Source: an uncultured bacterium
GTDB lineage: Bacteria; Patescibacteriota; Minisyncoccia; Moranbacterales; UBA2206
Reading direction: 5' to 3'
DNA: 42,679 nt
Assembly (NCBI GenBank): GCA_903841185.1
Contig: CAIMIV010000048.1
Span: 1-42,679 of the forward strand
The translations under genes and the position numbers were made by a program. Every line of letters begins with the position of its first letter. Position 1 is the stretch's first letter. Below the pieces are notes generated by a model, which saw only the letters and a program-made list of their open reading frames with translations, was not told the origin of the DNA and made no database searches. Below, in pieces: positions 1-42,679 of this stretch.

Positions 1-108
1 AATTCAATAGATGGATTTTTTGGAAAAACAAAAATGCTCTTGCAAGTCCATCGAGGACTAACGCAAGAGCGTAGATACAAAGTAATTCAAGAGATATTTA
101 GAGGATAA
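1..108 (+). CDS. C-terminal end of a probable DDE-type transposase (partial)
   Basis: An open frame runs from the first base to a TAA at 106-108 and encodes the last 35 residues of a protein cut off by the window edge. The tail is basic and contains NSIDGFFGKTK and, shortly after, HRGL. This resembles the end of DDE transposases, where a conserved acidic residue precedes FW/FF-G-x-x-K (ISXO2/IS1595-like or IS5-like). The family assignment is tentative. The main support is context: 27 bases downstream begins a sequence matching the end of 162-bp inverted-repeat elements found elsewhere in the window, so this could be the transposase of the full-length relative of those elements. Confidence 0.45.
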   Translation, partial: NSIDGFFGKTKMLLQVHRGLTQERRYKVIQEIFRG

Positions 109-134
109 AATCCTTACAAAAGTTCCATTAAGCC

Positions 135-194
135 GAAAAATTATATCTCAAAATCTGAAAATTTCGTTACGCAAATTATTGCGCAACAGGTCTA
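135..194 (+). repeat. Terminal repeat, partial copy of hairpin element family I
   Basis: About 60 bases match the right end of the 32068-32229 element almost exactly, including TGAAAATTTCGTTACGCAA and the terminal TTGCGCAACAGGTCTA. The left half of the 162-bp element is absent. A truncated probable transposase frame ends at 108 instead, so this may be the right end of a full insertion sequence. Confidence 0.7.
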
Positions 195-7271: not shown

Positions 7272-7817
7272 TTATTTATTGCATTTATCAGCAAGCCAAT
7301 TGAAGTAAATTAATACCAAGTCAGCGAATCCAGCGGAGAGAAGCTTAGGCTCATTCTCTATAAGATTCCTCATCTTCTCAATACTCATGTACTGAACCGA
7401 CTTCACCTCCTTAGGGTCAATCTTCATATCTTCAATCTTGTATTCCCCCCTTACTTCCCAAAGGGTTATAAATCTGTTGTTTACACAAGGACCGACAGAA
7501 TTTACCCTATGCTTTGCTACTTTTATGAAGGCTGATTCTGGAATAGTCAGTCCAAGCTCCTCTTCAACCTCCCTGATCGCACCGCCAAGATAATTTTCCG
7601 TATAAGGGAAATGTCCGGAGGCAGAATAGTCCAACATGCCGCTATCCGCCCTCTCTTGCACAAGAATTTCATTCTCTGCATTTACTATCAAGACCGATGT
7701 CTCTCTGTGTAATCTTCCATCAGCATGGTTCTTCCGGAGATATGTTCCAATTTCGTTATCATCCTCATCAACGATTGAAATTATCTCATCAGGGTTATGC
7801 GCTACTAATGTGTCCAT
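7272..7817 (-). CDS. NUDIX hydrolase, IPP-isomerase/YfcD-like, third of three
   Basis: A 181-residue protein. LHRETSVLIVNAENEILVQ followed by SGHFPYTE and REVEEELGL gives a complete NUDIX box in the arrangement of IPP isomerase and YfcD-type hydrolases (LHR-x-x-x-V, Q-x-R, then GH). Typical length for the YfcD group is about 180 residues. A diagnostic active-site Cys of true type I IPP isomerase is not evident, so a hydrolase is the safer call. The start is chosen at the second ATG (7815-7817), because AAGGAGG ends six bases before it; the upstream ATG at 7821-7823 touches the ribosome-binding site. It has its own consensus promoter (8035-8062) and an unusually long leader of about 210 bases. 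Confidence 0.8.
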   Translation of the reverse strand: MDTLVAHNPDEIISIVDEDDNEIGTYLRKNHADGRLHRETSVLIVNAENEILVQERADSGMLDYSASGHFPYTENYLGGAIREVEEELGLTIPESAFIKVAKHRVNSVGPCVNNRFITLWEVRGEYKIEDMKIDPKEVKSVQYMSIEKMRNLIENEPKLLSAGFADLVLIYFNWLADKCNK

Positions 7818-7904
7818 ATTCATCCTCCTTTTTTCTGATTATTACTGAAGAACTTTTAGCTAATCTAGTATTATAATTATCATTTTCAACCACTCTCTAC
7901 AACA

Positions 7905-9582: not shown

Positions 9583-11043
9583 TTAAGCCTTGTCGGCGAT
9601 TTCATAGGCATGCGCTGTGCGCAACAGATTTTCCTCATCAAACCATTTAGCCATCAACTGAAAACCTTGCGGCAACGGCACTCCGTCCACCTCCACCAAC
9701 GGTCCCGGCACAGAAATCGCCGGCACACCCACAATGTTGGCCGTAATAGTGAAAATATCCGCTAAATACATCTCCAGAGGATCGGCGGTTTTTTCGCCAA
9801 TCTTGAAAGCCGGCGTTGGAGTGGTTGGCGTCAGAATCAAATCCACTTCTGCAAAAGCCTTTTCGAAATCTTGCTTGATGAGCGTACGCACTTTTTGAGC
9901 GCGCAAATAATAGGCATCATAGTAGCCGGAGGAAAGCGCATAGGTGCCCAGCATAATGCGTCTCTTTACTTCCGCTCCCAAGCCAAAGCGTCGGGAATCC
10001 AAATAGGTCTCAATCAAGTTGCGATCCTCCGGTACAAAATCCAGCACGCTGTTCACATGGTCTACCGCGCGCATGCCATATTTGATGCCGTCAAATCTTG
10101 CCAGATTGGAGCTGACTTCGCACGGCATAATAATATAATACACCGGCAAGGCATATTTGGCATAGGGCAATTCAATTTCCTTGATTTCCGCGCCCAATTT
10201 TTTGTAAGTTTCAATCACTGCTAGGATGGATTTTTTCGGTCCTTCGCCCAAGCCATCAATATATTCGCGGACAATACCAATGCGCAAGCCCCGCACCTTT
10301 CCGGTCAAATATTGCGTGTAGTCTTTGGCGGGACTCTTGGCACTCGTGCCATCCATTTTACTTTCTCCACTAATCGCTCCGAGGATAATAGCCGCGTCTT
10401 CTACGTTCATGGTAATTGGTCCGATTTGATCCAAACTGGAAGCCATCGCCATCGCCCCATAGCGCGAAACTCGGCCATAGGTGGGCTTCAACCCCACTAC
10501 GCCACAGAAAGACGCTGGCTGGCGAATCGAGCCTCCAGTGTCAGTTCCGAGAGCCCAAACAGCTTCGCCGGAAGCCACGGCTGCGGCTGAACCGCCAGAA
10601 GAGCCTCCTGGCACTCTTTCCAAATCCACCGGATTTTTAGTGGCGCCATAAGCACTTTTTTCCGTCGAGGAGCCCATAGCAAATTCGTCCATATTCACCT
10701 TGCCCAAAATCACCGCACCGGCCTCTTTGAGACTGGTCACTACACCGGCATCATAGGGTGCGATATAGTTATCCAAAATTTTGGAACCGGCCGTGGCGCG
10801 CACGCCCGCCACGCATAAATTATCCTTGACTGCTCCCGGGATGCCTTCCAAGATGCCAATCTCTTCTCCCGCGGCAATTTTTTCATCTACTTTTCTGGCT
10901 TGCGCCAAGGCCAGCTCTTTGGTCAAAGTTAAATAGGCATTTAAGTTTTTATCCTTTTCTGCGATGATGGCAAAATATTTTTCCGCCAGCGCCACCGCGG
11001 AAATTTCTTTGTTGACTAATTTTTCGTGTAATTCTTTTATCAT
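9583..11043 (-). CDS. gatA: Aspartyl/glutamyl-tRNA amidotransferase subunit A
   Basis: A 486-residue amidase-signature protein, the catalytic subunit of GatCAB. The complex converts misacylated Glu-tRNA(Gln) or Asp-tRNA(Asn) to the correct amide form, using ammonia from glutamine hydrolysed by GatA itself. The Ser-cisSer-Lys triad is visible: Lys in AVKDNLC, then PGGSSGGSAAAVASG and GTDTGGSIRQPASFCG. The start is set at MIKELHEKL; an upstream ATG would add 16 residues from an inverted repeat. gatC lies upstream on the same strand beyond that repeat; gatB is not in the window. No Shine-Dalgarno sequence is seen. Confidence 0.95.
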   Translation of the reverse strand: MIKELHEKLVNKEISAVALAEKYFAIIAEKDKNLNAYLTLTKELALAQARKVDEKIAAGEEIGILEGIPGAVKDNLCVAGVRATAGSKILDNYIAPYDAGVVTSLKEAGAVILGKVNMDEFAMGSSTEKSAYGATKNPVDLERVPGGSSGGSAAAVASGEAVWALGTDTGGSIRQPASFCGVVGLKPTYGRVSRYGAMAMASSLDQIGPITMNVEDAAIILGAISGESKMDGTSAKSPAKDYTQYLTGKVRGLRIGIVREYIDGLGEGPKKSILAVIETYKKLGAEIKEIELPYAKYALPVYYIIMPCEVSSNLARFDGIKYGMRAVDHVNSVLDFVPEDRNLIETYLDSRRFGLGAEVKRRIMLGTYALSSGYYDAYYLRAQKVRTLIKQDFEKAFAEVDLILTPTTPTPAFKIGEKTADPLEMYLADIFTITANIVGVPAISVPGPLVEVDGVPLPQGFQLMAKWFDEENLLRTAHAYEIADKA

Positions 11044-11045
11044 AA

Positions 11046-11169
11046 CGATATTCGATTCGAAACTACGAATGTAATGCGAATCTACAAACAATTTTTAAAA
11101 AATATATTTTTACATCTAATTTTCCTTATGCCGTTCGTAGATTCGCAAATGTTTCGTAGTTTCGTATCG
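11046..11169. repeat. Imperfect inverted repeat between gatA and gatC
   Basis: Left arm 11046-11085 and right arm 11137-11169 share CGAAACTACGAA and TGCGAATCTAC in inverted orientation, around about 50 bases of A+T-rich sequence. The element fills the whole gatC-gatA spacer, so the operon transcript would contain a long hairpin just before the gatA start. Confidence 0.7.
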
Positions 11170-11170
11170 G

Positions 11171-11452
11171 TCATAAAACACTTTTTACTTTATCATAATT
11201 ATCTTTTCTCTCCGGAAACAATTCCACGATACCGGTCTGGTTGTCAAAATCACTCTGCGCGTCTTGGCGCAAGCGGTTTTCCATGCCGGTGATGTGCGCT
11301 GTGGGTTCCACACCATCCACATTCACTTCTTTCAGCTGATCAATCCACTCCAAAACTGCGGACATTTCAGTGGCCATTTTTTCCGTCTCCTGCTCGCTCA
11401 TCCCAATGCGAGCCAGACCCGCAATATGTTGGACTTCTTTTTTGGTAATCAT
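11171..11452 (-). CDS. gatC: Aspartyl/glutamyl-tRNA amidotransferase subunit C
   Basis: A 93-residue protein of normal GatC length, the small belt subunit that holds GatA and GatB together. The family pattern is clear: an N-terminal VQHIAGLARIGMSEQE helix, LEWIDQLKEVNVDGVEPTAH in the middle, LRQD, and a C-terminal FPER tail. It lies immediately upstream of gatA on the same strand, separated by the 124-bp inverted repeat. It starts without a Shine-Dalgarno sequence. Confidence 0.92.
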   Translation of the reverse strand: MITKKEVQHIAGLARIGMSEQETEKMATEMSAVLEWIDQLKEVNVDGVEPTAHITGMENRLRQDAQSDFDNQTGIVELFPERKDNYDKVKSVL

Positions 11453-11460
11453 AATCTTTG

Positions 11461-11608
11461 TAATTTTTGAATTTTTACAATTTTTAAATTTTTAAATAAA
11501 TTTTAATTTTCAATTTCTAAACCAATCCATGTTAAGCAAGCTTAGATATCTAAAAATTTAGATTTAAGAAATTATTTACAAAATTATAAAATTACAAAAT
11601 TTAAAAAT
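11461..11608. other. A+T-rich spacer with simple inverted repeats
   Basis: The gatC-ligA gap is almost only A and T, with repeated AATTTTTAAATTT-like tracts and an ATCTAAAAATTTAGAT palindrome. No gene is seen. Confidence 0.5.
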
Positions 11609-32057: not shown

Positions 32058-32067
32058 TTTTTTATAT

Positions 32068-32229
32068 TAGACCTGTTGCGCAATAACTTACTATTGCAAT
32101 TTCCATATTTTGGTCAAATTTTCCAAAAATTTCCTTGGATTAGCTACGGCTAGTCCGCAAAAATTGTTTGAAAAATTATGCCGCAAAATCTGAAAATTTC
32201 GTTACGCAACTTATTGCGCAACAGGTCTA
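32068..32229. mobile_element. Hairpin element family I, copy 1 (162 bp, TA-flanked)
   Basis: It begins TAGACCTGTTGCGCAATAA and ends with the inverse TTATTGCGCAACAGGTCTA. The halves are imperfectly complementary along the whole length, so the element folds end to end. There is no coding capacity. It sits between the MacB-like permease gene and the lipoprotein gene, whose operon it splits. The copy at 42154-42315 is the same length in opposite orientation. Confidence 0.85.
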
Positions 32230-32287
32230 CTTAAATTATTTATGACTTACGTATTTAAATTTCATTTACCACATTTTACCAAAAAAA

Positions 32288-33505
32288 TTATTCGTAGCGC
32301 AAAGTGTCCACCGGCTTCAATTGGGAAGCTTTCACTGCCGGATAGTAGCCAAAAAACACACCAATCCCCACGGTAAACAATGCTGACATGCCATAGCTCC
32401 ACCACACAAAAATAATATCCATGCCATAGGCTCTCAGGGCAAAAAAGATTCCCGTCGCCAACAGCAATCCCACTCCAGCACCCACCCCGCTTAAAATAAT
32501 CGACTCTAATAGGAACTGCAACATAATATAATATTTTTTCGCCCCGATAGCTTTGCGGATGCCAATTTCCTTAGTCCGTTCCTTGACAATGATATGCATC
32601 ACATTCATAATCCCAATCCCGCCCACTAACAGCACAATCAGTCCCACACTCCCCAAAAGAAAGGACATGGTCTGGGCGCTATCTTTGGCAGCCTGCACAT
32701 TCACTCCCATATCCCGCAGACGAAAATCTTCTGTCATCCCAGGACGAATGCCATGTGCTTCGCGCAAAATCTTGCCTACGTCCGTCATTGCTGCATCGAT
32801 TACATCCACACTTCTGGCTTCCAAGTTCAGATTAAACTTGCCATTCTTGCCCAGGACATATCGATAGGAAGAAGAATAGGGCAACATAATGCTATCATCA
32901 ATGGAAGTCGGCCCAATAGAGCCACCTTTGTATTTAGCTACCCCAATAATTTCAAATTGTTTTTTTCCAATCGTGATTTGAGTGCCCACTACATCAGCAT
33001 CTACACTGCCATATAATTCCTCTGCCACCGTCGCTCCCAGCACAGCCACTTTAACATTTTCCTCATCTTCCTCTGCCTTGAAAATACGGCCTTTATTGAT
33101 TTCTATGTTGGCCACCTTGAAAAAATCTGCCGAAGTTCCCAAAATCCCAGCTTGATAGGAATTTCCTTGCCCCGTCGCCTGAACCTTGCCAGTCAATTGC
33201 GGAATGGCCTGAGAAATATATTCACTGGCCAGAACCTTTTCAATGTCAGCTACATCTAATTTGGAAATTTGCCCATCCGTGGACGGCGCATTAACCAAAA
33301 TAGTGGTGACATTCATATTGGAATATTGTTCCTCAATTTTAGCTCCAGCCCCGCTGCCCAGTTCGATTACCAGCACAATGGTAGTCGCTCCAATAATGAT
33401 TCCTAGGGAAGTCAGAAAAGAGCGAAATTTGTTGCTACGCAAACTTCTCCAGGCTAGAGCGATTATCTTGATTTGCATTTGCAATAAGGAAATTTTTTTC
33501 TTCAC
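32288..33505 (-). CDS. MacB-like ABC transporter permease
   Basis: A 405-residue permease: a first membrane helix after SLRSNKFRSFLTSLGIIIGA, a large extracytoplasmic MacB_PCD domain (~50-270), then three C-terminal FtsX helices (LLVGGIGIMNVMHII, RTKEIGIRKAIGAK coupling motif, VGIGVFFGYYPAVKASQLKP). The E-I-G-I-R-K-A-x-G motif contacts the ATPase. It is separated from the ATPase and adaptor genes by the lipoprotein gene and the 162-bp mobile hairpin. Confidence 0.92.
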   Translation of the reverse strand: MKKKISLLQMQIKIIALAWRSLRSNKFRSFLTSLGIIIGATTIVLVIELGSGAGAKIEEQYSNMNVTTILVNAPSTDGQISKLDVADIEKVLASEYISQAIPQLTGKVQATGQGNSYQAGILGTSADFFKVANIEINKGRIFKAEEDEENVKVAVLGATVAEELYGSVDADVVGTQITIGKKQFEIIGVAKYKGGSIGPTSIDDSIMLPYSSSYRYVLGKNGKFNLNLEARSVDVIDAAMTDVGKILREAHGIRPGMTEDFRLRDMGVNVQAAKDSAQTMSFLLGSVGLIVLLVGGIGIMNVMHIIVKERTKEIGIRKAIGAKKYYIMLQFLLESIILSGVGAGVGLLLATGIFFALRAYGMDIIFVWWSYGMSALFTVGIGVFFGYYPAVKASQLKPVDTLRYE

Positions 33506-33520
33506 AACAACTAACTAATT

Positions 33521-34336
33521 TTAATTAAATAATTTGAAGGCCCACCCAAGCAAACTAAAAACATTATTATTGCCCTCTGCCAAAGCTGTTTTCAATTGCG
33601 TGCTCACCTGCTCCATGCTTTGCAACTGCTCCGTCAACAACAATTTATCTGCGGCGTCTGTTGTTTGCGACTCTATCATTTGCAATTGTTTTATTTTTTC
33701 CTCGTGTTGCGTTAGCCTTGATTTAATCTCTGTTAAAAGATCCTGGTCTGATCCCATAAAAAACTTAACTAACCCGCTTCTCCGTCCAGCTGCCTGTAAA
33801 TTTTTCTGGATTAAATTTTGCGCGACTACTTGCTCTTGCTGCATCACGGCCACTCGACTCTCTAATTCAGGATTTTTATAACGACGCATTATTTGCCCGG
33901 CACTTTCTTGTTGTCGCAATCCTTGCTCGTCATTTAAACCAGCCTCTTCCGGACTCACCAATCCCATTCCTGGATTATGAACACCTTGCTCCTCCGTTTG
34001 CCCCAGCCCATTTGTCTGAGGACTTTGCATGTTAGTCTGATTCCCACTGCCATCTTGTACTGGCATATGACCGCCATTAGGCGTACCATCACTATCCACA
34101 TCTCGCATATTAGCATTGGTTTTAGCATAATCATCATCCGCTCGATTCAAAATTCCGTCACCGTCCGCATCTTCCAATCCATCCTCTATCCCGTTTTTAT
34201 TTATATCCCTCCTATTTTGACCTTGCATACCACCGCCTCCCTGGCCGTCACCACCTTGTGCTAAAGAAGATTGAGCGGTAAGCGCACTGATTGCAATCAG
34301 CATACCCATGGTTATAATATATTTTTTCTTGTTCAT
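33521..34336 (-). CDS. Secreted protein with Ca-binding-type DxDxDG repeats
   Basis: The start is taken at MNKKKYIIT, giving 271 residues with a signal peptide (GMLIAISALTAQSSLAQ). The mature N-terminus is Gly/Gln-rich, then has DINKNGIEDGLEDADGDG and DVDSDGTPNGG, EF-hand or thrombospondin-type-3-like calcium loops. A helical Gln/Glu-rich second half (e.g. QQEQVVAQNLIQKNLQAAG, KIKQLQMIESQTTDAADKLL) could form a coiled coil. It ends 15 bases before the permease gene, so it may be a substrate or partner of the exporter. The function is unknown. Confidence 0.6.
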   Translation of the reverse strand: MNKKKYIITMGMLIAISALTAQSSLAQGGDGQGGGGMQGQNRRDINKNGIEDGLEDADGDGILNRADDDYAKTNANMRDVDSDGTPNGGHMPVQDGSGNQTNMQSPQTNGLGQTEEQGVHNPGMGLVSPEEAGLNDEQGLRQQESAGQIMRRYKNPELESRVAVMQQEQVVAQNLIQKNLQAAGRRSGLVKFFMGSDQDLLTEIKSRLTQHEEKIKQLQMIESQTTDAADKLLLTEQLQSMEQVSTQLKTALAEGNNNVFSLLGWAFKLFN

Positions 34337-34408
34337 GTTTTTAAAATTTCCAATCGATTTATTTTTATTTCTAAATCCCATATAAGAGAGGAGTGTGCCT
34401 CCTCTCTT

Positions 34409-34414
34409 AGTGTA
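34409..34414 (-). promoter_or_regulatory. -10 element of the 33521-34336 gene
   Basis: TAGTGTACACTAAG on the minus strand contains TACACT, giving a leader of about 65 bases. Confidence 0.4.
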
Positions 34415-34420
34415 CACTAT

Positions 34421-34849
34421 TTATTGCAATTTATCACACTGTCCGTCCCCGTTGGCGTCCACAAAATTTCCTCCCTTGTTCTGCCCTCGTTGTCCGGCGT
34501 GCATGCCGCGTCCTTGGCCGTTGCCGCCACCTTGGCCCAGCCCCAGTTCCGCACGGATAGCGGCCGCTTCAGTAGTTTTTCCGTCCAGCATCAACTGATG
34601 CATTTCGGCAAACCGCGCAAAATTTTGTTCAGTCACCTGACGCACCGCTCCTCGATCTCCCATTTGCGCTTTCCAAGCGGCATAATCCTTGTTTTCAAAA
34701 GCTTTTAACATAGTTGCGTGTCTTTCGGGAGTATAATTTGGCCCCGTCTTGGTGGCGTCTCCCTGATAAGCATAGACACCTGTCGCAATTACCGCCGCTC
34801 CTAGCAAAGCTAATGCGCTTGTGCCCAGAATAATATTTTTCTTATTCAT
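34421..34849 (-). CDS. Small secreted protein with a C-terminal DxNxDG loop
   Basis: A 142-residue protein with a signal or anchor segment (MNKKNIILGTSALALLGAAVIATGVYA). The helical middle (ATMLKAFENKDYAAWKAQM, then FARFAEMHQLMLDGKTTEAA) resembles small CPR proteins of the DUF2680/Spy-like style. A Gly-rich run precedes FVDANGDGQCDKLQ, a possible calcium loop with a Cys. It is first in the chain leading to the exporter operon. Confidence 0.6.
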   Translation of the reverse strand: MNKKNIILGTSALALLGAAVIATGVYAYQGDATKTGPNYTPERHATMLKAFENKDYAAWKAQMGDRGAVRQVTEQNFARFAEMHQLMLDGKTTEAAAIRAELGLGQGGGNGQGRGMHAGQRGQNKGGNFVDANGDGQCDKLQ

Positions 34850-35037
34850 TGTTTTTTGTGTCTTGATTAACTATTTTCTAAAAAAATAATTAATTTCGAC
34901 TTTCCTTAAATTGTTTATAATGCGCTAGCACCATGTATAACGAGCGCCAGTCAAAAAGTTTTCATTCCGACTTTTATATTTTTAAATAACTACCCCATAT
35001 CCCATATTGAGTTTAAGCCCTGAAATAGCAAGCCAGA

Positions 35038-35066
35038 TTGACATTCCTCTGCCATTTTGCTAATCT
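35038..35066 (+). promoter_or_regulatory. Consensus promoter of the DapB-like gene
   Basis: TTGACA (35038-35043), exactly 17 bases, TAATCT (35061-35066). The leader is about 47 bases. Confidence 0.7.
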
Positions 35067-35119
35067 GAGTCATTCCATAGTTGTTTTACAACCGTAGTCT
35101 AACCAAGGAGACAGAAGAA

Positions 35120-35953
35120 ATGAAAAAGATAATTCCTGTAATGATTAATGATCCATCTGGCAATATGGGAGGTTTGGTTGAAATCGCTCTTTCACAGCGC
35201 GATGATATTAAAATCATTCCCGATTCCCTGACCGGTTTTTCCAGGACGACTCACTACCACCGCGGTAGAGTTAACATCCAGCTTCATGCACCACATGAAC
35301 ATGTCAAAATTATGCAAACAGTGTCCGAAAGATGGCGTGATGTTGGCCTTATTGCTATCGACTTCACTCAGCCAATCAGTGTGGAGAACAATGTGAGGCT
35401 CTACTGTGCCCACAAAATTCCCTTTATCATGGGAACCACCGGTGGAAACCGCATATCACTCCCCCATTTGGTGGAGGCTTCCGAAATATCGGCGGTCATC
35501 GCCACCAACATGTCCGCTCCGGTTGTCATGCTGGTGGATATGATTATCTATGCCGCCACGAATTATCCTGGCACGCTCAAGGACTGGGAAATCCGTATCG
35601 TGGAAAGTCATCAAGCCAAAAAACAAGACATCAGTGGTACCGCCCTGACTATCGGCGAGATTATGAAAGGCCTAGGCGTCAAATTCATCGGTCCGGAGAA
35701 CATCCGTGCCATCCGTGACGAAATTGAGCAACTGTTGATGGGTATCCCTCGATCTGCTCTTGGTGGTCACGGTTGGCATAAATATTCCCTGCTCTCTCCC
35801 GACGGCAACGTCATGTTGGGTTTTGAGCACAACATCAATGGCCGCGACACCTATGTGGACGGCACCTTGAAAGCCCTGGATTTCCTGGTGAAAAAAATCA
35901 CCGAAGGCTCCAAGGGGCAATGTTTTTCCATGCCAGACGTGATGCATGGCTAG
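35120..35953 (+). CDS. dapB: Dihydrodipicolinate reductase-like protein, plant-type
   Basis: A 277-residue protein. The start is fixed by AAGGAG eight to nine bases before the ATG at 35120. DapB reduces dihydrodipicolinate in the lysine/diaminopimelate pathway. Visible motifs: DPSGNMGG (nucleotide loop, in place of G-A-x-G-R-M-G), IDFTQP, GTTGG, ATNMSAPV and ESHQAKKQDISGTA (in place of the bacterial E-x-HH-x-x-K-x-D-x-P-S-G-T-A), then FEHNINGRDTYVDGT. The ESHQ form without the His-His pair is like the plant/Chlamydia type. No other lysine gene is near. A biosynthetic role is uncertain; it has its own promoter and terminator. Confidence 0.75.
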   Translation: MKKIIPVMINDPSGNMGGLVEIALSQRDDIKIIPDSLTGFSRTTHYHRGRVNIQLHAPHEHVKIMQTVSERWRDVGLIAIDFTQPISVENNVRLYCAHKIPFIMGTTGGNRISLPHLVEASEISAVIATNMSAPVVMLVDMIIYAATNYPGTLKDWEIRIVESHQAKKQDISGTALTIGEIMKGLGVKFIGPENIRAIRDEIEQLLMGIPRSALGGHGWHKYSLLSPDGNVMLGFEHNINGRDTYVDGTLKALDFLVKKITEGSKGQCFSMPDVMHG

Positions 35954-35988
35954 CTGGGGATAACATTTCCCCAAAGAATAAACACCTC

Positions 35989-36026
35989 AAGGAGGGTTCG
36001 TGAGAATCCTCCTTTTTTATTTTTTG
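35989..36026 (+). terminator. Terminator of the DapB-like gene
   Basis: An 11-bp stem (AAGGAGGGTTC/GAATCCTCCTT, one G-U) with a GTGA loop, followed by TTTTTATTTTTT. Confidence 0.88.
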
Positions 36027-36035
36027 AAATAAGCA

Positions 36036-36065
36036 TTGACATTTGTATCGTACCTGTGTCATACT
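36036..36065 (+). promoter_or_regulatory. Promoter ahead of the HelD-like gene
   Basis: TTGACA (36036-36041), 18 bases, CATACT (36060-36065). The 36066-36389 leader contains no gene, but holds the 163-bp family II hairpin. Confidence 0.5.
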
Positions 36066-36180
36066 GGAGTTAATAAGGTCTTCTTGCAAATAGTTAGCTC
36101 AAATATCTTGCTTCAAAAATCGCTTTAACATTAGAACGAATAAATTGCGTCCAAAATGCGATTTATGCCAAAAAATGTTC

Positions 36181-36343
36181 TAGAGCCTGTTCAAAATACT
36201 TGTTTTCTGCTGCAATTTCCCGATTTCGGCTGCAAAAAGCTCATCGCTCGTCGCCATATCTATAGATATGACTCCTTTCGATTCACTTTTTTCGCTCGAA
36301 ATAGGAAAATTTCGCGACGAAAAAAGACTTTAAACAGGCTCTA
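36181..36343. mobile_element. Hairpin element family II (163 bp, TA-flanked)
   Basis: It begins TAGAGCCTGTTCAAA and ends TTTAAACAGGCTCTA. The arms are imperfectly complementary through to a central perfect palindrome CATATCTATAGATATG (36255-36270), which lies exactly at the midpoint. A block CGAAATTTTC sits at the same offset from the end as in family I, so the families are related. It lies in the leader of the helicase gene. Confidence 0.85.
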
Positions 36344-36389
36344 AAAGCGGTTTTTTTAATTATTAGACACCAAGTCTATTTGAACTTCT

Positions 36390-38198
36390 ATGAACAAAGA
36401 AAAAATATTAGCTGATGCCAAAAATCATCTGGAAAAAGTTGGCACGCGCATTCAAGACGCCGGTAAGCAATTAGCTGGCACCATCACTCGCGATAAAGCC
36501 GTCTACACCACCCTGACCAACGCTGACAAAATCGTGGCTGATCAAGTGCAAAAATATAACGAAAAAAGAGTGGATGAATTGGCCCACTTGCAAGGCTCGC
36601 CCTATTTCGTGCGCTGTGACGTTATCTATGACCAAGAAGAGGCGGTCACTTCGCTCTATTTCGGAAAATTCGGTTTTCAAGAAGAATCCATCTACTCCTG
36701 GGTGGTGCCGGCTTCCGGCATGCGTTTTGAAAATCCCGGTCAGGTCAGTTATCGACTGCCCGACGGCAAGACGCAAGCAGCCCAACTCTTGCGCAAAGAC
36801 CAATATATGATTACTCATGGCCAACTGAAATTCCTCTCCACAGAAACTACAGATGAGTCGCGCCAACTAGTCTTCCAAGAATATTTTTCTAATCGCAAAA
36901 CCAGCTTCGCCTTGCCGGAGATCGTCGCCCAAATGGAAAAAGCCCAAGACCAAGTTATTCGCGCCCACCACGTCGGACCCTTTCTCATCTCCGGCCCGGC
37001 CGGCAGCGGCAAAACCACGTTGGCGCTTCATCGCGTCGCCTATCTGACGCAATCCCCCGACTTGTCTGACAAATATCCCAGCAAATCCATCATCGTTTTC
37101 GTCCAAGACCAGGGTACCAAGAAATATTTTTCACAACTCCTGCCGGAGCTGGGCATCAACGACGTCCAGATCACCACTTTTCCGGAGTGGGCGCTTGCTA
37201 TTTTGAAAATCAATGTCACCTTTTCTCCGCGTTATGGAGCAAATGAAGAAGAAAAAGATTTATATGAACTGGCCAAATTAGCGGCTCTGCGAAAGCATCG
37301 GCCAACAACCGATATTGGCTTTCCCTTGCTGGAAAAAATCTACGCCACCCATTTCGATGCACGCCAGCAGAAAATGTTCCGGCAACAAAAACTCCGCAAA
37401 ACCCTAGACAAAATCGATCTCACTCTGCTTTTGAAAAATCGCCTGGAAAAAAACAGACAACTGGAACGCATAGAAGAATATTTGGTGGAAACCCAAAATG
37501 GCCAAATCATCCAAAAGCAAACCAAGACTATTTTGCGCTATTCCTTGGCGGTGATTGATGAGTTTCAAAACTATCTTCCGGCGCAGTTGCAAATCATCAA
37601 TTCCTGCCTTGATGAAAAAAACAAATCCACTCTTTATGTCGGTGATATGGCGCAACAAGTCCATTTTGGAACCCTCAAGCACTGGGATGAAATCAATGAA
37701 GACATCCATCAGACCCGCCAAGTGGTGTTGAGCAAAGTCTATCGCAATACTAAAAATATTTTGACCTTCATTCAAGGTCTGGGCTATTCCATTGAACTGC
37801 CGGAAGGTCTGAAAGACGGTCCGCCTGTCGCGCAGCTACTGACCTCCGGACCGGCACAAGAGATGGCCTACATCCAAAAAACCTTAGCCAAATCCCAATT
37901 TCAAAGCGCGGGCATCATCGCCAAAGAACAATCCTATCTGACTGCGTTCGCAACGGCCTTTTCCGCCCAAGAAAAAATTCACATCATGACGATGAATGAA
38001 GCGCAGGGCGTGGAGTTTGACATGGTGTTTTTAGTCGGGATGAGCAGCGACCTGTTCCAGGCGCAGTATACGGAAGAGATGCCACAAGCAATCTTGGACG
38101 AAAAAAGGAAAATCAACCGAGACCTGCTTTATGTCGCCCTGACCCGAGCCATCTCGGAACTGCATATTTTAGGCAAAGATAAATTGCAAAGTTTTTAA
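36390..38198 (+). CDS. Short HelD-like UvrD/Rep-superfamily helicase
   Basis: A 602-residue SF1 helicase-like ATPase. The N-terminal ~180 residues begin with a helical pair (MNKEKILADAKNHLEKVGTR.., VQKYNEKRVDELAHLQGSPYF), as in HelD, and continue into a beta-rich domain. The ATPase starts with EKAQDQVIRAHHVGPFLISG and Walker A GPAGSGKTT (~residue 201). Walker B-like AVIDEFQNY, motif III YVGDMAQQ, motif V MTMNEAQGVEFDMVF and motif VI YVALTRA are all present. HelD proteins recycle stalled RNA polymerase; typical length is ~770, so this is a compact form. Being a generic UvrD-type helicase is the alternative. Confidence 0.82.
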   Translation: MNKEKILADAKNHLEKVGTRIQDAGKQLAGTITRDKAVYTTLTNADKIVADQVQKYNEKRVDELAHLQGSPYFVRCDVIYDQEEAVTSLYFGKFGFQEESIYSWVVPASGMRFENPGQVSYRLPDGKTQAAQLLRKDQYMITHGQLKFLSTETTDESRQLVFQEYFSNRKTSFALPEIVAQMEKAQDQVIRAHHVGPFLISGPAGSGKTTLALHRVAYLTQSPDLSDKYPSKSIIVFVQDQGTKKYFSQLLPELGINDVQITTFPEWALAILKINVTFSPRYGANEEEKDLYELAKLAALRKHRPTTDIGFPLLEKIYATHFDARQQKMFRQQKLRKTLDKIDLTLLLKNRLEKNRQLERIEEYLVETQNGQIIQKQTKTILRYSLAVIDEFQNYLPAQLQIINSCLDEKNKSTLYVGDMAQQVHFGTLKHWDEINEDIHQTRQVVLSKVYRNTKNILTFIQGLGYSIELPEGLKDGPPVAQLLTSGPAQEMAYIQKTLAKSQFQSAGIIAKEQSYLTAFATAFSAQEKIHIMTMNEAQGVEFDMVFLVGMSSDLFQAQYTEEMPQAILDEKRKINRDLLYVALTRAISELHILGKDKLQSF

Positions 38199-38276
38199 TC
38201 ATACTCTTCCCGTGATCCTTCTTTCCGCCACACCAGTAAAAAACAAAAGGGACTAACAATCAATCCTAAAAAATTT

Positions 38277-38316
38277 AAAAGCAGCCGATATTATTTTATA
38301 ATACGACTGCTTTTTT
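38277..38316. terminator. Bidirectional terminator between convergent genes
   Basis: AAAAGCAG pairs with CTGCTTTT, enclosing an inner TATTAT/ATAATA helix, with A- and T-runs on both sides. It serves the helicase gene (+) and the MFS gene (-). Confidence 0.82.
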
Positions 38317-38323
38317 AAAACTT

Positions 38324-39508
38324 TTATACTGCCCTGTGCTTGATGAGTTGTGCTAAACTCACCATCCCCAAAATTCCGAACGTCAAGCCACTAACCAAGA
38401 GCGCTGTCTGCAAAGAAAAGTGCTCACTCACCCAGCCCATAATCGGACCAACGATGGAGAAAATTAATCGGGCAATCAAATTTTTAATGGAAAAAATAGT
38501 GGCTCGATCTTTCTCCGGAATGCGCAGATTAATATAGCTTCTCATAATCGGCTCATTCAATCCCCGGGCGATATAGAAAGGGATGATAAATATTGAGGAC
38601 CAAACAAACGCCGTGGCTCCGAGAAAAAAATATCCGATAACAGCAGAGACCAGCATTAACAACATGCATGTTTTTTTCTTCAGCCATTTTTCCACCGCAT
38701 ACGCCTTATAAGAAGCCAAAGCTCCGAAAGCCAGGAGTCCGGCCCAACCTAGCCCAAACAAAGGAGTTGGAATACCAGTTAGCGCCCAATAGACCTGGAC
38801 AAACCAAACCATATTGAGCGTGGCCGCACTGATAACCGAGGAAAACCACAAGAAACTTTTCACCTCTTTATGATCATGCAGAGAAAATCGCATCACTCGC
38901 CACAAGGTCAACAAACTGCTTTCACGTTTGATGATTGTTTGTTTCTGAGGTTCTTTCAGGGTCAGTGCCACCAAGATAACTAGAGAGGAAAAAGCCGCAT
39001 CAAAATAGATTGGTAATCTCAAGCTGATTGTTGCCAGAATTGTGCCACCAATCAAGCTAGTAAACCCCTCCGATAACATTCCAATGCCTCGGCTATTGCC
39101 CTCCAACGCAATACCTTGTCCACTAGCCAGGAACTCTTTTTCCGTATCGAGCAAAAGAGCGCTGTCAGCTCCGGAAACAAAACTCATTCCCAGGGCAAGC
39201 ACCGTTTCCGCCAACAGAAAACCATAGAATCCGTGCGCTACAGCATAGAGAGAGAATCCCAGTGTGGAAAAAACGCCACCTAAGACTATAGATCTCTTTC
39301 TTCCGTAGTTATCAGCAAAATAACCGGTAGGGATTTCAAAGGCCATAGCGGCCACTGAAAATAAAGCTTGCAAAATAATCGCATCCTGGAGATTCACTCC
39401 GTTTTGGGCAAAAAACAATATAATAATTGAAATGCTAAACATGCCGTTGCGAATCGCCCTGATGATACAAATTTTTCGAAAATTACCCGCCACTGCGTTT
39501 TTTTCCAT
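38324..39508 (-). CDS. Major facilitator superfamily transporter
   Basis: A 394-residue protein with about 12 hydrophobic segments. The loop 2-3 motif is GYFADNYGRKRS (G-x-x-x-D-x-x-G-R-K/R), the MFS signature, and a related PIMGWVSEHFS occurs in the second half. The substrate is not deducible; the family often exports drugs or metabolites. AAGGAG lies seven bases before the ATG, so its ribosome-binding site is canonical, unlike most core genes here. A terminator-like hairpin precedes it. Confidence 0.87.
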   Translation of the reverse strand: MEKNAVAGNFRKICIIRAIRNGMFSISIIILFFAQNGVNLQDAIILQALFSVAAMAFEIPTGYFADNYGRKRSIVLGGVFSTLGFSLYAVAHGFYGFLLAETVLALGMSFVSGADSALLLDTEKEFLASGQGIALEGNSRGIGMLSEGFTSLIGGTILATISLRLPIYFDAAFSSLVILVALTLKEPQKQTIIKRESSLLTLWRVMRFSLHDHKEVKSFLWFSSVISAATLNMVWFVQVYWALTGIPTPLFGLGWAGLLAFGALASYKAYAVEKWLKKKTCMLLMLVSAVIGYFFLGATAFVWSSIFIIPFYIARGLNEPIMRSYINLRIPEKDRATIFSIKNLIARLIFSIVGPIMGWVSEHFSLQTALLVSGLTFGILGMVSLAQLIKHRAV

Positions 39509-39562
39509 GATACTCTCCTTGCTGGGTTAAATGGAAGATTGTAAAAGAACTTTTTTGCCAAA

Positions 39563-39594
39563 CAAAAACCCGGTTTTTGTTTAACCGAGTTTTT
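39563..39594 (-). terminator. Terminator-like hairpin upstream of the MFS gene
   Basis: AAAACTCGGTT pairs with AACCGGGTTTT (one G-U) around AAACAAA on the minus strand and is followed by TGTTTGG. It lies 55 bases before the MFS ATG with no obvious gene upstream that it ends, so it may be an attenuator. The remaining 39595-39840 is A+T-rich and I see no gene in it. Confidence 0.45.
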
Positions 39595-39841
39595 CCGAAG
39601 AAGTATTTAAAATCTTTTTATTGCATTAGATATAAAATATTATTCCGACAGACACAGTTAAACAAAATTTCTTTTGCCATTGGACAGGTAAAATACACGC
39701 CATCAATCCAGGCGGAGTGTTTATCCCTATTCAATTGTGTTCTGTATTGCTGCATAAAAATATTTTAACATTTATACTTGTCTATTTAATAACATGCTTT
39801 AGAATTATTGTCAAATATTTTTGGCTCTATGCTACAAAACA

Positions 39842-39879
39842 AAAAAACATACCATCAATAACAATGATATGTTTTTTTA
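39842..39879 (-). terminator. Terminator of tRNA-Ser(GCT)
   Basis: AACATA-x-CAT pairs with ATG-x-TATGTT; a T-run follows on the minus strand. Confidence 0.6.
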
Positions 39880-39885
39880 GAATCT

Positions 39886-39950
39886 CTCCTTCGCAACAAC
39901 CTACTGGCGGACTGTGTCCGCCGTAGCTCGCTGCTTCGGCGAGCGAAGGA
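39886..39950. repeat. Nested palindromic repeat at the tRNA-Ser 3' end
   Basis: The outer arms CTCCTTCGC/GCGAAGGAG enclose two inner hairpins, GGCGGAC-TGT-GTCCGCC and GCTCGC-TGCTTCG-GCGAGC. It directly abuts the last acceptor base of tRNA-Ser(GCT). Confidence 0.75.
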
Positions 39951-40034
39951 GGAAGAGGTGGGATTCGAACCCACGGTCCCTTACAGGACAACTCGTTAGC
40001 AGTGAGTCCCTTTCGGCCACTCAGGCACTCTTCC
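39951..40034 (-). tRNA. tRNA-Ser(GCT)
   Basis: A class II tRNA with acceptor GGAAGAG/CTCTTCC, anticodon loop CTGCTAA (anticodon GCT), a long variable arm (TGTCCTGTAAGGGAC) and T-loop TTCGAAT. The base after the acceptor is T, where serine tRNAs normally have G73 (the tRNA-Ser at 42040 has G); the palindrome begins exactly here. Confidence 0.88.
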
Positions 40035-40068
40035 ACGGCATTTAATTGTGCTTTCCAACACTTCGTTA

Positions 40069-40097
40069 AGTTTACCAGATATTTTTTCTAATATCAA
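40069..40097 (-). promoter_or_regulatory. Promoter of tRNA-Ser(GCT)
   Basis: The minus strand shows TTGATA (40092-40097), exactly 17 bases, TAAACT (40069-40074). Confidence 0.65.
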
Positions 40098-40172
40098 GGG
40101 TTCGGCTGCGCAAGGAACTTCTTTCCGCATATTAAGCCTTATATACAACAAAAAAACGCCCAAAACCAGCGA

Positions 40173-40201
40173 TTGACGCTACCCCCGCCCGGTGCTATAG
40201 T
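40173..40201 (+). promoter_or_regulatory. Strong promoter of the zinc-ribbon gene
   Basis: TTGACG (40173-40178), exactly 17 bases, TATAGT (40196-40201), with TGC before the -10 (extended). The leader is about 129 bases. Confidence 0.7.
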
Positions 40202-40276
40202 CTCTCTAGAGGTGATGAGACCAAATTAGTTTTATTTAGAATATAGATAAGCTATAGCGTAGGTCACCAAAAACTG

Positions 40277-40326
40277 AACCCGCCTGCGCATTAAGCTACG
40301 GCGAGGCAAAGCTAGAAAGGCGGGTT
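40277..40326 (+). promoter_or_regulatory. Leader hairpin sequestering the GGCGGG motif
   Basis: AACCCGCCT (40277-40285) pairs perfectly with AGGCGGGTT (40318-40326), closing a 32-base loop. The right arm contains the GCTAGAAAGGCGGGT motif shared with the pilin leaders and ends 10 bases before the ATG. A cis-acting control element is plausible. Confidence 0.5.
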
Positions 40327-40336
40327 ACTATACAAA

Positions 40337-40582
40337 ATGGCTTATCAAGACAACGGTGGAGCAAGAGCACCCCGACAAATGTTTGATATCTCAGCAATGA
40401 ATATCACATGTTCCGAGTGTGGCACTCCCATCACAGAACTACCTTTTGAACCAACTAAGAAGGAAGATGGAACATTAGGAAAACTTTTCTGTTACGAATG
40501 TAACAAGAAGAGAAATGCTGACAAACCCAGAAGAGGCGGATTCGGCGGAGGAAACAGCTTTGGAGGAGGAAGAAGATTCTAA
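40337..40582 (+). CDS. CxxC-CxxC zinc-ribbon protein with RGG-like tail
   Basis: An 81-residue protein. ITCSECG and LFCYECNKK give two CxxC knuckles about 25 residues apart, forming a zinc ribbon. The C-terminus GFGGGNSFGGGRRF with preceding RRGG resembles RGG-type RNA-binding tails. Small proteins of this type are widespread in CPR and of unknown role; an RNA- or ribosome-related function is inferred. It has a strong promoter, a long GC-rich leader and a strong terminator, which suggest high or regulated expression. Confidence 0.82.
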   Translation: MAYQDNGGARAPRQMFDISAMNITCSECGTPITELPFEPTKKEDGTLGKLFCYECNKKRNADKPRRGGFGGGNSFGGGRRF

Positions 40583-40600
40583 CTCTCCAATTTCAGATAA

Positions 40601-40634
40601 AAAAAAGGTCTCGAGCAATCGAGATCTTTTTTTT
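40601..40634 (+). terminator. Terminator of the zinc-ribbon gene
   Basis: A 12-bp stem AAAAGGTCTCGA/TCGAGATCTTTT (one G-U) with a GCAA tetraloop, then a T-run. Confidence 0.88.
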
Positions 40635-40647
40635 ATCGAACTTTCTA

Positions 40648-40733
40648 TGGTGTCCTTGGGAGGAATCGGACCTCCGGCCTCTTGGACCGCCCCGTAAAGT
40701 CGCTGTGCTCCTACGGGGTAAACAACCAAACGC
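40648..40733 (-). pseudogene. tRNA-Arg-like copy C: 3' half with palindrome in the anticodon loop, CCA encoded
   Basis: The 3' half of a tRNA is clear: CGGTCCAAG, T-arm GGAGG-TCCGATT-CCTCC, acceptor strand CAAGGAC, A, CCA. The anticodon loop is split between G34 and C35 by a 33-base element (40690-40722) with CCCCGTA/TACGGGG arms. The D-arm and 5' acceptor are missing. It is immediately downstream of the intact gene. Confidence 0.75.
40690..40722. repeat. CCCCGTA-TACGGGG palindromic element
   Basis: CCCCGTAAAG..CTACGGGGTAAA is inserted at the same anticodon-loop position as a different element in pseudogene copy A (40845-41035). Confidence 0.7.
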
Positions 40734-40745
40734 GTGGTCTTATTG

Positions 40746-40818
40746 TGTCCTTAGCAGGAATCGAACCTGCGACCTTCTGGACCGCAACCAGACGCTCTAT
40801 CCACTGAGCTATAAGGAC
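40746..40818 (-). tRNA. tRNA-Arg(GCG), intact copy B
   Basis: The acceptor is GTCCTTA/TAAGGAC, the D-arm GCTC/GAGC, the anticodon loop TTGCGGT (anticodon GCG, reading CGC), and the T-arm GCAGG/CCTGC with TTCGATT. The discriminator is A; no CCA is encoded. Confidence 0.9.
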
Positions 40819-40864
40819 ATATTTCATTTTGGTTTAAATTTAATACCTGCGACCTTCTGGACCG

Positions 40865-40928
40865 TCCGCCTCGGCCTGTCTCGCTTGGCGCTTGCCAAGG
40901 TGGACGAGTTCGCCTCGAACGAGACGGG
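40865..40928 (-). repeat. CCCGTCTCG/CGAGGCGGA element, copy 3
   Basis: It has the same ends as the two ligA copies, with a longer centre containing CTTGGC-AAG-CGCCAAG. It is inserted in the tRNA-like anticodon loop. Confidence 0.75.
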
Positions 40929-40941
40929 CAATCAAACGCTC

Positions 40942-40961
40942 CCTGCCTGCCGGCAGGCAGG
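40942..40961. repeat. 20-bp perfect palindrome, copy 3
   Basis: The identical 20-mer is inserted between A and G of the D-loop of the tRNA-Arg-like copy A with no duplication. Confidence 0.9.
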
Positions 40962-40974
40962 TATCCACTGCTTG

Positions 40975-41023
40975 TCCGCCTCGGCGAGTTCGCCTCGAAC
41001 GAGACGGGTCCGCCTATGGCGGA
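40975..41023 (-). repeat. CCCGTCTCG element copy 4 plus TCCGCC-ATA-GGCGGA palindrome
   Basis: 40975-41008 carries the conserved CCCGTCTCG and CGAGGCGGA ends with a TTCGAGGCGAA hairpin centre. A second palindrome follows at 41009-41023. Confidence 0.72.
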
Positions 41024-41049
41024 AGCTACAAGGACTTTTTTTCACTGCT

Positions 41050-41212
41050 TAGGCATTGTAACAAAATAAATTGTGCAAGTCCGTGCTCATGTTTGCGTCA
41101 GATTTGTTTAAAAAAATTGGAAAATGTATCAGTATACTTTGAGGATTTTTTTAAACAAAGATGTCGTGAAGATGGGTGCGAAATTGTATAATTTATTTTG
41201 TTACAGTGCCTA
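41050..41212. mobile_element. Hairpin element family III (163 bp, TA-flanked)
   Basis: It begins TAGGCATTGTAACAAAATAA and ends TTATTTTGTTACAGTGCCTA. The arms also share CAT, CG, CA and TTTGTTTAAAAAAAT blocks down to a GTATCAGTATAC-like centre. The length and TA ends match families I and II. It lies between the tRNA-Arg copy A and the 3' end of the membrane-protein gene. Confidence 0.85.
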
Positions 41213-41221
41213 TCTAGCCTA

Positions 41222-41848
41222 CTATATTCTGAACAATCTTTCAAGTGTTTCCACAATATTATGTTCTTGTTTGATTTCTTCCACATTTTCCAATAGCGCT
41301 TCCCGGATGGTTACCGGATTTTCCTCACCGATGGGAATGTGCATATACGGCGTAATCAGGCTGTGCATGTGCAAACTAATCACCTTGGAACCATCTTCTT
41401 CATAGAAAATCCAAAAGGATTTGATGCGGTCATATTCAAAAATCTCTTTGCCGGCAATCACCCCGTCTTCGGTGATCATAAAATCCAGAATTCGCGGTTC
41501 TTTTTCAATATAGGAATACCCCACCACGCCAATCAGAATGAACGTGATGGCCATGATCGGACTGTTGACATAGATAGCATAGGCCACAATGGCCACCAAA
41601 ATCAACGCCAGATACACAAACCAGCGTTTATCCTGCTCATACACTTCAAACTCCGGGGCCACCCAGTGTTGCAAAGCGCCTTTGGCATGTTGCGCGATGA
41701 TTCTGCGATTAGCTTCTTCATCCATAGCATGCCCAGCTCTTTCCTCCGGCGCTATTTCTTCAGGCCTTTCTTGTTCACGCGAAAAAAAATCCTCCACCTG
41801 ATGCGCTCTTTTTTCAACATTATTTTTTCTAAAACCATCTAGCGACAT
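41222..41848 (-). CDS. Conserved two-helix membrane protein
   Basis: A 208-residue protein. A hydrophilic, Glu- and Arg-rich N-terminus (~1-70) precedes two adjacent membrane helices (WFVYLALILVAIVAYAIYVN and SPIMAITFILIGVVGYSYI), then a PH-like beta domain (ILDFMITEDGVIAGKEIFEY, SFWIFYEEDGSKVISLHMHS). The layout matches a conserved CPR hypothetical family; I cannot assign a function. No catalytic motif is seen. It is transcribed alone. Confidence 0.65.
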   Translation of the reverse strand: MSLDGFRKNNVEKRAHQVEDFFSREQERPEEIAPEERAGHAMDEEANRRIIAQHAKGALQHWVAPEFEVYEQDKRWFVYLALILVAIVAYAIYVNSPIMAITFILIGVVGYSYIEKEPRILDFMITEDGVIAGKEIFEYDRIKSFWIFYEEDGSKVISLHMHSLITPYMHIPIGEENPVTIREALLENVEEIKQEHNIVETLERLFRI

Positions 41849-41956
41849 AGCTTTGCATAAACCTTATTCATTTACCTTTCCATCTTAGCATATTTATTCC
41901 ATACTCAAAAGCTTTTTCTTAGCTAGTGTTTCAAACCCCTAAATTATCCCTTCGGG

Positions 41957-41985
41957 TTTACAAAATTATCTTTAAATGCTACCAT
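41957..41985 (+). promoter_or_regulatory. Probable promoter of tRNA-Ser(TGA)
   Basis: TTTACA (41957-41962), 17 bases, TACCAT (41980-41985), about 48 bases before the tRNA. The elements are weak. Confidence 0.35.
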
Positions 41986-42039
41986 AAATTGGTGATTTAA
42001 TGGGAATCACGAGACCCACGGATTTTACAATTTATACAT

Positions 42040-42126
42040 GGAAGAGTGCCCGAGTGGTTGAAGGGAACAGTCTTGAAAACTGTCGAACCTGAAAGGGTTC
42101 CGTGAGTTCGAATCTCACCTCTTCCG
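42040..42126 (+). tRNA. tRNA-Ser(TGA)
   Basis: A class II tRNA with acceptor GGAAGAG/CTCTTCC, anticodon loop CTTGAAA (anticodon TGA), a long variable arm (GAACCTGAAAGGGTTC), T-loop TTCGAAT, and G73. No CCA is encoded. The family I hairpin lies 27 bases downstream. Confidence 0.92.
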
Positions 42127-42153
42127 CTATGGTGCGGGGTCGCGAAAAACTAT

Positions 42154-42315
42154 TAGACCTGTTGTTTGATAAGTTGCGTAACGAAATTTTCAGATTTTGC
42201 GGCATAATTTTTCAAACAATTTTTGCGGTTTAGCCGTAGCTAAGCCAAGAAAATTTTTGGGAAATTTGACCAAAATATGAAAATTGCAGTAGTAAGTTAT
42301 TACACAACAGGTCTA
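42154..42315. mobile_element. Hairpin element family I, copy 2 (162 bp, TA-flanked)
   Basis: An inverted copy of 32068-32229, identical in length and with TAGACCTGTT/AACAGGTCTA ends. Differences are scattered, with an altered inner end (TTTGATAAG) on the left and TTACACAAC on the right. Confidence 0.87.
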
Positions 42316-42340
42316 TTGTACTGAAAGGTACCAGAGATTC

Positions 42341-42679
<339 letters not shown>

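Follow-up and report, generated by a model that had tools for sequence, protein, structure and literature searches.

The window analysed here is a stretch of 42,679 nucleotides from an uncultured bacterium of the phylum Patescibacteriota (contig CAIMIV010000048.1, order Moranbacterales), and it contains four hairpins of nearly identical size, E1 to E4, whose relatives occur in many genomes of the phylum. With a probability of about 0.68, we interpret these elements as non-autonomous sequences resembling miniature inverted-repeat transposable elements (MITEs), which are mobilised in trans and fold during a single-stranded stage. Target-site duplications, multi-copy distribution, covariation of the hairpin arms and a consistent preference for folding on one strand carry this interpretation. 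The elements provide a phylum-wide and easily recognised marker of transposition in genomes that are thought to be streamlined, and they also break assemblies: in one genome, many contigs terminate within a copy. No paper on MITEs in the Candidate Phyla Radiation or Patescibacteria turned up in full-text searches.

Four hairpins of fixed size

An earlier note, made from the letters of the window alone, had described four TA-flanked hairpins in three families. All four are present at the coordinates first noted, with lengths of 162, 163, 163 and 162 bp including the TA ends, and each is complementary to itself from end to end, with 60–61 Watson-Crick pairs among 76–78 aligned pairs. We compared them using two covariance models, R1, trained only on family I copies from the window genome, and R2, built from 51 diverse relatives. 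Without the TA ends, the four hairpins are as follows, each with its best-folding strand.

32070..32227, − strand: E1, family I hairpin, 158 bp without TA or target-site duplication
36183..36341, − strand: E2, family II hairpin, assigned to one superfamily with family I, ends GAGCCTG...CAGGCTC
41052..41210, + strand: E3, family III hairpin, unrelated in sequence but of equal size and architecture; minimum free energy (MFE) −76.2 (+) versus −42.6 (−)
42156..42313, + strand: E4, family I hairpin, inverted relative to E1; R2 E=1.5e-29, + strand

R2 also detected E1 (E=3.3e-29, − strand; MFE −65.8 on the − strand versus −52.3 on the +) and E2 (E=2.4e-19, − strand; MFE −69.3 versus −42.1), the latter being among its 51 training sequences. 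Compared to dinucleotide shuffles, RNA MFE z-scores for the + and − strands were −7.7 and −9.6 for E1, −3.5 and −10.1 for E2, −13.2 and −7.7 for E3, and −8.8 and −5.0 for E4, so that the best strand of each hairpin scored between −8.8 and −13.2.

Once one of them is reversed, E1 and E4 are identical at 149 of 162 positions (92%) and are inverted copies of one family. R1 detects elements in other genomes (for example G047, G088 and G108, at E values of about 1e-7 to 1e-10) that carry the conserved boxes of E2; thus, families I and II form one superfamily with a common core, in keeping with the shared sequence that had been noticed between them, and the original division into three families holds for family III only. 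E3 matches R2 only at E=0.23, and family III alone is unrelated in sequence to the others, with the same size and architecture. Close relatives of E2 lie elsewhere in the window genome, on contigs C16, C3, C59, C57, C38 and C44.

Imperfect inverted repeats span the whole length of the element. Each end consists of a G-starting terminus of 1–4 bp followed by an arm of ~14 bp that varies among copies and subfamilies (together an outer arm of ~18 bp), and then by an inner box with phylum-wide conservation, which is TACTGCAATTTCCATATTTTGG at one end and, read inwards, CGTWACGAAATTTTCAGATTTTGAG at the other. The left and right ends are similar yet can be distinguished through these inner boxes, and distinct subfamilies can be recognised by their GACC, GGGAC or GAGCC ends. 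In the apical region sequence changes freely at constant total length. Shorter derivatives have lost the hairpin tip from both arms, and some longer copies (~181–183 bp) are explained by ~20-bp palindromes of the CTGCCTGCCGGCAGGCAG type.

Copies in the window genome and across the phylum

The genome-wide search for further copies of this length class, proposed in the earlier note, returned 22 full-length family I copies in the 1.34-Mb window genome (E1 and 21 more), with a mean column identity of 95%; 21 of these are identical in length and one differs by 1 bp. Also present in this genome are an interrupted copy, a number of remnants and ~36-bp palindromes made up of the arms alone. R1 found relatives in 20 of 114 genomes, counting the window genome, and R2 matched 43 of 380 genomes sampled evenly over the phylum, with nearly all matches spanning 153–162 bp. 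Ten further copies of family III occur in six genomes besides E3. The claim that length is fixed despite divergence in sequence is thus borne out within the genome, across the phylum and in the unrelated family III, and the refuting outcome named in the earlier note, a lack of other copies in this length class, did not occur.

In a Magasanikbacteria genome of 0.9 Mb (G114), we counted 203 arm matches versus 1 for a reversed control pattern, and 28 complete copies within the 666 kb examined. Copies in this genome are interrupted by contig ends at many contigs, and all copy counts given here are therefore lower bounds. The elements are intergenic (1 of 113 lies inside an open reading frame, ORF), and no conserved ORF belonging to the element was found. 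Internally deleted copies of 36–132 bp are present in several genomes.

When one genome for each of 84,980 species was scanned for an exact match to the two-box pattern, at least 80 stretches were returned. Among the matches listed, almost all were labelled as Patescibacteria (Falkow-, Magasanik-, Azam-, Moranii-, Yanofsky-, Uhr-, Peregrini-, Staskawicz-, Lipton-, Doudna- and Sungiibacteria, among others) or as unnamed bacteria, the exceptions being a 0.7-Mb bin labelled Lysobacteraceae and a bin labelled Elusimicrobia. Dozens of hairpin arms occur in the Lysobacteraceae-labelled bin (JAACEG01, OTbin.42; L181, L185, L187, L203, L225, L228, L229, L250), which from its size is probably a mislabelled Patescibacterium. 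A viral origin of the hairpins was rejected, as there were no matches in 2.9 million viral contigs.

Insertion duplicates 5 bp of target

We set element boundaries by the ends alone and compared the identity of left and right flanks with that of shuffled pairings. In a cross-genome set with GAC-type ends (n=35), flank identity exceeded the shuffles only at 5 bp (z=4.5), and the same was true of a GGG-type set (n=11; z=4.8), in which five duplications were perfect compared to 0.42 expected. For family I in the window genome, whose copies are more diverged than those of the cross-genome sets, the 5-bp signal was weaker (z=2.8) and a 7-bp value also appeared (z=3.0). Within G114, perfect 5-bp duplications flanked 11 of 26 copies (shuffled mean 0.8, maximum 4), and 16 of 26 matched at four or more of the five positions. 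Thus, elements of superfamily I/II have transposed, and their insertion duplicated 5 bp. Together with the inverted repeats and the multiple copies, these duplications bear out the earlier suggestion of MITE-like mobile elements. The duplicated target is not the TA dinucleotide that had been proposed: elements with GACC-type ends are typically flanked by a duplicated TANTA, which means that the 'TA ends' mostly belong to the duplication rather than to the element, and TA is not involved in the GGG set. The element proper measures 157–159 bp with GACC-type ends and 160–161 bp with GGG-type ends. In the window, the relevant flanks are as follows.

32065..32069, no strand: TATTA, the 5 bp to the left of E1; with TACTT on the right side (32228–32232) it makes up a decayed duplication
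42151..42155, no strand: TATTA, the left copy of the 5-bp target-site duplication of E4; on the right, 42314–42318 reads TATTG (4 of 5)
40816..41209, no strand: segment of ~394 bp that includes E3; genome G001, from the same genus, lacks it at the orthologous site

The last of these came from the empty-site comparison that had been recommended. On contig C37 of G001, matches to query positions 10442–10516 and 10911–11540 lie only 14 bp apart, compared to 394 bp here, and the segment is also missing in G004 and G018. The part adjoining E3 (40816–41049), which is absent from the same-genus genome, contains tRNA gene fragments (ACCTGCGACCTTCTGGACCG...) among palindromes.

Covariation of the arms and strand preference

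The outer arms of family I vary more (0.14) than the interior (0.05), and 89.8% of arm cells are paired. Cells changed on both sides of a pair numbered 25, compared to 6.9 ± 2.4 in shuffles (0/500) and to 1–2 when the arms were slid. For the 51 diverse elements, the corresponding count was 112, against 30.4 ± 5.2 in shuffles (0/500) and 21–36 when slid. At family I pair 8/156, for example, GC occurs 10 times, AU 5, CG 2 and UA once.

Every one of the 22 family I copies has its better fold on the same strand (mean −62.9 versus −41.6 kcal/mol), a preference shared by the majority of copies in other genomes. On the weaker strand, mismatches in a strand-neutral alignment comprised 606 A•C versus 309 G•T, and 172 versus 84 when the arms alone were counted. 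On the opposite strand most mismatches are therefore G•T, which gives that strand the better fold in nearly every case. All 11 copies of family III favour one strand as well, by 14–38 kcal/mol. Ordinary small transposons are not known to keep one size in unrelated families or to pair far better on one strand than on the other.

Adjacent transcription is co-directional with the stable strand in 34 cases and opposed to it in 40, and because of this random orientation an RNA function in read-through transcripts of neighbouring genes was rejected. The strand preference is therefore most likely caused by something in the life cycle of the element itself, which suggests that a one-strand hairpin, in single-stranded DNA (ssDNA) or in an element-specific RNA, is selected during that cycle. 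As to the earlier idea of structured non-coding RNAs, selection for a one-strand hairpin is indicated, and it does not depend on neighbouring transcription.

Search for a transposase or parent

The transposases DDE_Tnp_1 (PF01609), rve (PF00665) and Tn3 (PF01526) were rejected as the mover, because hairpin-rich genomes either lack them or do not carry them consistently; around the loci of the first two, no insertion-sequence-like ends were found. Tn3 transposase was found in 0 of 17 hairpin-carrying genomes, with matches in two control genomes. Searches of these three groups gave no evidence for the earlier proposal that one transposase type moves all the elements. No transposase gene recurs beside copies, the nearby ORFs in different genomes being of housekeeping types. 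A search for a parent by common ends returned no half-element pair flanking a gene in the window genome and no convincing one in 666 kb of G114; high-copy insertion sequences break these assemblies, and the missing parent is therefore not proof of absence.

Proposed mechanism and alternatives

In the interpretation we favour, a trans-acting transposase would bind the inner boxes, and the outermost G-starting bases would serve as the cleavage site, with a cut staggered by 5 bp; here the duplication is observed and the enzyme is what we infer from it. Mobilisation or amplification would pass through a single-stranded stage, either one strand of ssDNA or the element's own transcript, in which folding would be required. 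This stage would select for pairing of the arms, with G•T or G•U tolerated on that strand, and for a fixed overall length. We are doubtful about a more specific version, a class of mobile element common in Patescibacteria in which spread needs a one-strand, full-length hairpin of set size and insertion nonetheless duplicates 5 bp. If true, it would mean that transposition joins hairpin recognition with staggered integration, and that two unrelated sequence families reached this arrangement independently. Constant size, covarying arms and one-strand folding make a hairpin-based transposition intermediate directly testable.

Several observations weigh against the favoured interpretation. Pairing is not maintained without exception, since positions 13/150 are unpaired in 8 of the 22 copies of family I, and the persistence of internally deleted copies indicates that full length is not strictly required for persistence. 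The strand asymmetry comes partly from mismatches in the core that every copy within a family has inherited. The 5-bp duplication is established for superfamily I/II and not for family III, no transposase was found among the DDE_Tnp_1, rve and Tn3 candidates searched, and the search by common ends gave no autonomous parent. Moreover, the copies share ancestry, and covarying cells and mismatch types are not independent; because shared ancestry inflates the counts, and the shuffles keep this relatedness instead of removing it, we regard selection on hairpin pairing as probable and rate it no higher.

Alternatively, the elements could be ordinary MITEs, remnants of insertion sequences with long inverted repeats that arose by internal deletion, with the hairpin as a by-product. 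The arms would then match because subfamilies were founded by matched ends for different transposases, and the strand bias would be an inherited accident of a few ancestral mismatches. This explanation accommodates the 5-bp duplications and the inverted repeats, the bursts of copies and their patchy distribution, as well as the subfamilies with distinct GACC, GGGAC and GAGCC ends and the partial location of the mismatch bias in the common core. Subfamily founding, however, explains poorly why arms within one family and one genome vary at the same positions with matched partners, and the supposed terminal repeats vary more than the interior. The unrelated family III has equal length and a strand bias, and no parent with the same ends was found in the window genome or the 666 kb of G114. 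On balance we consider this explanation rather unlikely. We find improbable a second alternative, in which the arms would stay similar through mutation instead of selection, by template switching within a quasi-palindrome or when a hairpin intermediate is repaired. Such a process would account for the peak of covariation in the outer arms alongside lasting, conserved mismatches in the interior, and for symmetric internal deletions of the hairpin tip, as replication slippage on hairpins would give; it should also erase interior mismatches, however, yet these are conserved phylum-wide, and it does not predict a G•T-rich strand.

Stand-alone structured non-coding RNA genes or cis-regulatory elements retained by the host (terminators or attenuators) would match the better folding of one strand, the G•U pairs, the covariation and the intergenic location. 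This possibility is largely refuted by the duplications, and near-identical copy bursts, patchy presence, random orientation to neighbouring genes and the lack of an Rfam match make it very improbable. With Rfam covariance models, only tRNAs scored above the gathering threshold, and weak sub-threshold matches were to plant miRNA precursors. Miniature elements derived from Tn3 (TIMEs) are non-autonomous and generate 5-bp duplications. The duplications and G-starting ends seen here would suit such an origin, but the Tn3 result for the 17 hairpin-carrying genomes speaks against it, and the inner boxes are presumably unlike Tn3 repeats; we find a Tn3 derivation scarcely credible.

Comparison with known systems

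Bacterial MITEs, such as Correia elements, ERIC, RUP and QMITEs, are short, AT-rich sequences without coding capacity that lie between genes in many copies; they have inverted repeats, duplicate their target and are predicted to give stem-loop transcripts (PMC10969869). The present elements are likewise short, AT-rich, non-coding, intergenic and multi-copy, with terminal inverted repeats, predicted stem-loops and, in superfamily I/II, target-site duplication; they are MITEs in form, without a known parent. Unlike bacterial MITEs in general, they form a hairpin over their whole length, that length is conserved across the phylum and in two unrelated families, their arms covary within a family, and one strand consistently folds better. 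They also differ from the Correia/RUP type, which duplicates 2 bp (TA), in fitting 5 bp in all three sets tested. The Tn3-derived TIMEs (PMC4133298) resemble the present elements in their 5-bp duplications and lack of autonomy, and differ in that the hosts here lack Tn3 transposase (0 of 17 genomes) and the hairpin spans the whole element.

REP and REPIN palindromes, which work with RAYT transposases, involve strand-specific hairpin recognition, and REPs are 20–40 bp with a GTAG tag (PMC3733652). At ~158 bp and with 5-bp duplications, the present elements are not GTAG-tagged palindromes of 20–40 bp. By analogy, they may nevertheless work more like hairpin-recognising systems such as RAYT/REP. 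Integron attC sites, on which an integrase acts, are likewise folded into a hairpin from a single strand of DNA; they have conserved bulges, RYYYAAC/GTTRRRY boxes and a poorly conserved stem sequence. The present elements similarly favour a one-strand hairpin with a variable stem, a mechanistic analogy only: unlike attC sites they have no cassettes and show target duplications, and no attC boxes were seen by eye in them.

Other repeats in and around the window

The window also contains a further long imperfect hairpin at 11053–11169 (117 bp in total, with 37-bp arms that are 81% complementary), which the covariance model of the present families did not match. GC-rich short palindromes, CCTGCCTGCCGGCAGGCAGG and TCCGCCAGCTGGCGGA, occur in intergenic regions (window 40940–40962 and 42341–42362; L096, L086, L118, L049, L050, L054) and are apparently another small repeat class; the same palindromes sit inside some hairpins, adding ~8–21 bp. 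Arm-only mini-palindromes of 36–57 bp recur in several genomes, at the following positions.

L041:1985–2020 and 7785–7820: mini-palindromes
L042:2723–2758: mini-palindrome
L044:2368–2403: mini-palindrome
L046:556–591: mini-palindrome
L376:3988–4040: mini-palindrome

At least one of them (L044) has a perfect 5-bp flanking repeat, TAATA. We rejected the 36-bp palindromes as a separate family, as they look like deletion derivatives that join both arms; the arm-only forms may be such derivatives or may themselves be mobile.

At its left edge, the window begins inside an insertion sequence that splits a family I copy.

135..194, + strand: right part of a family I copy interrupted by an unrelated insertion sequence, the 3′ end of which occupies window 1–139

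This high-copy insertion sequence encodes the transposase C-terminus IDGFFGKTKMLLQVHRGLTQERRYKVIQEIFRG in the window and has the right end ...TTCCATTAAGCC; its 3′ end occurs at nine contig ends, and its 5′ end (GGCTTAATAGAA, with the zinc ribbon CPKCGK) at seven others. With ends GGCTTAATRGAA and an 8-bp duplication, it was rejected as the parent of the hairpins, having merely inserted into a family I copy. The 8-bp duplication at the interrupted copy, GAAAAATT, is common to contig C26, which suggests that the left edge of the window joins that contig.

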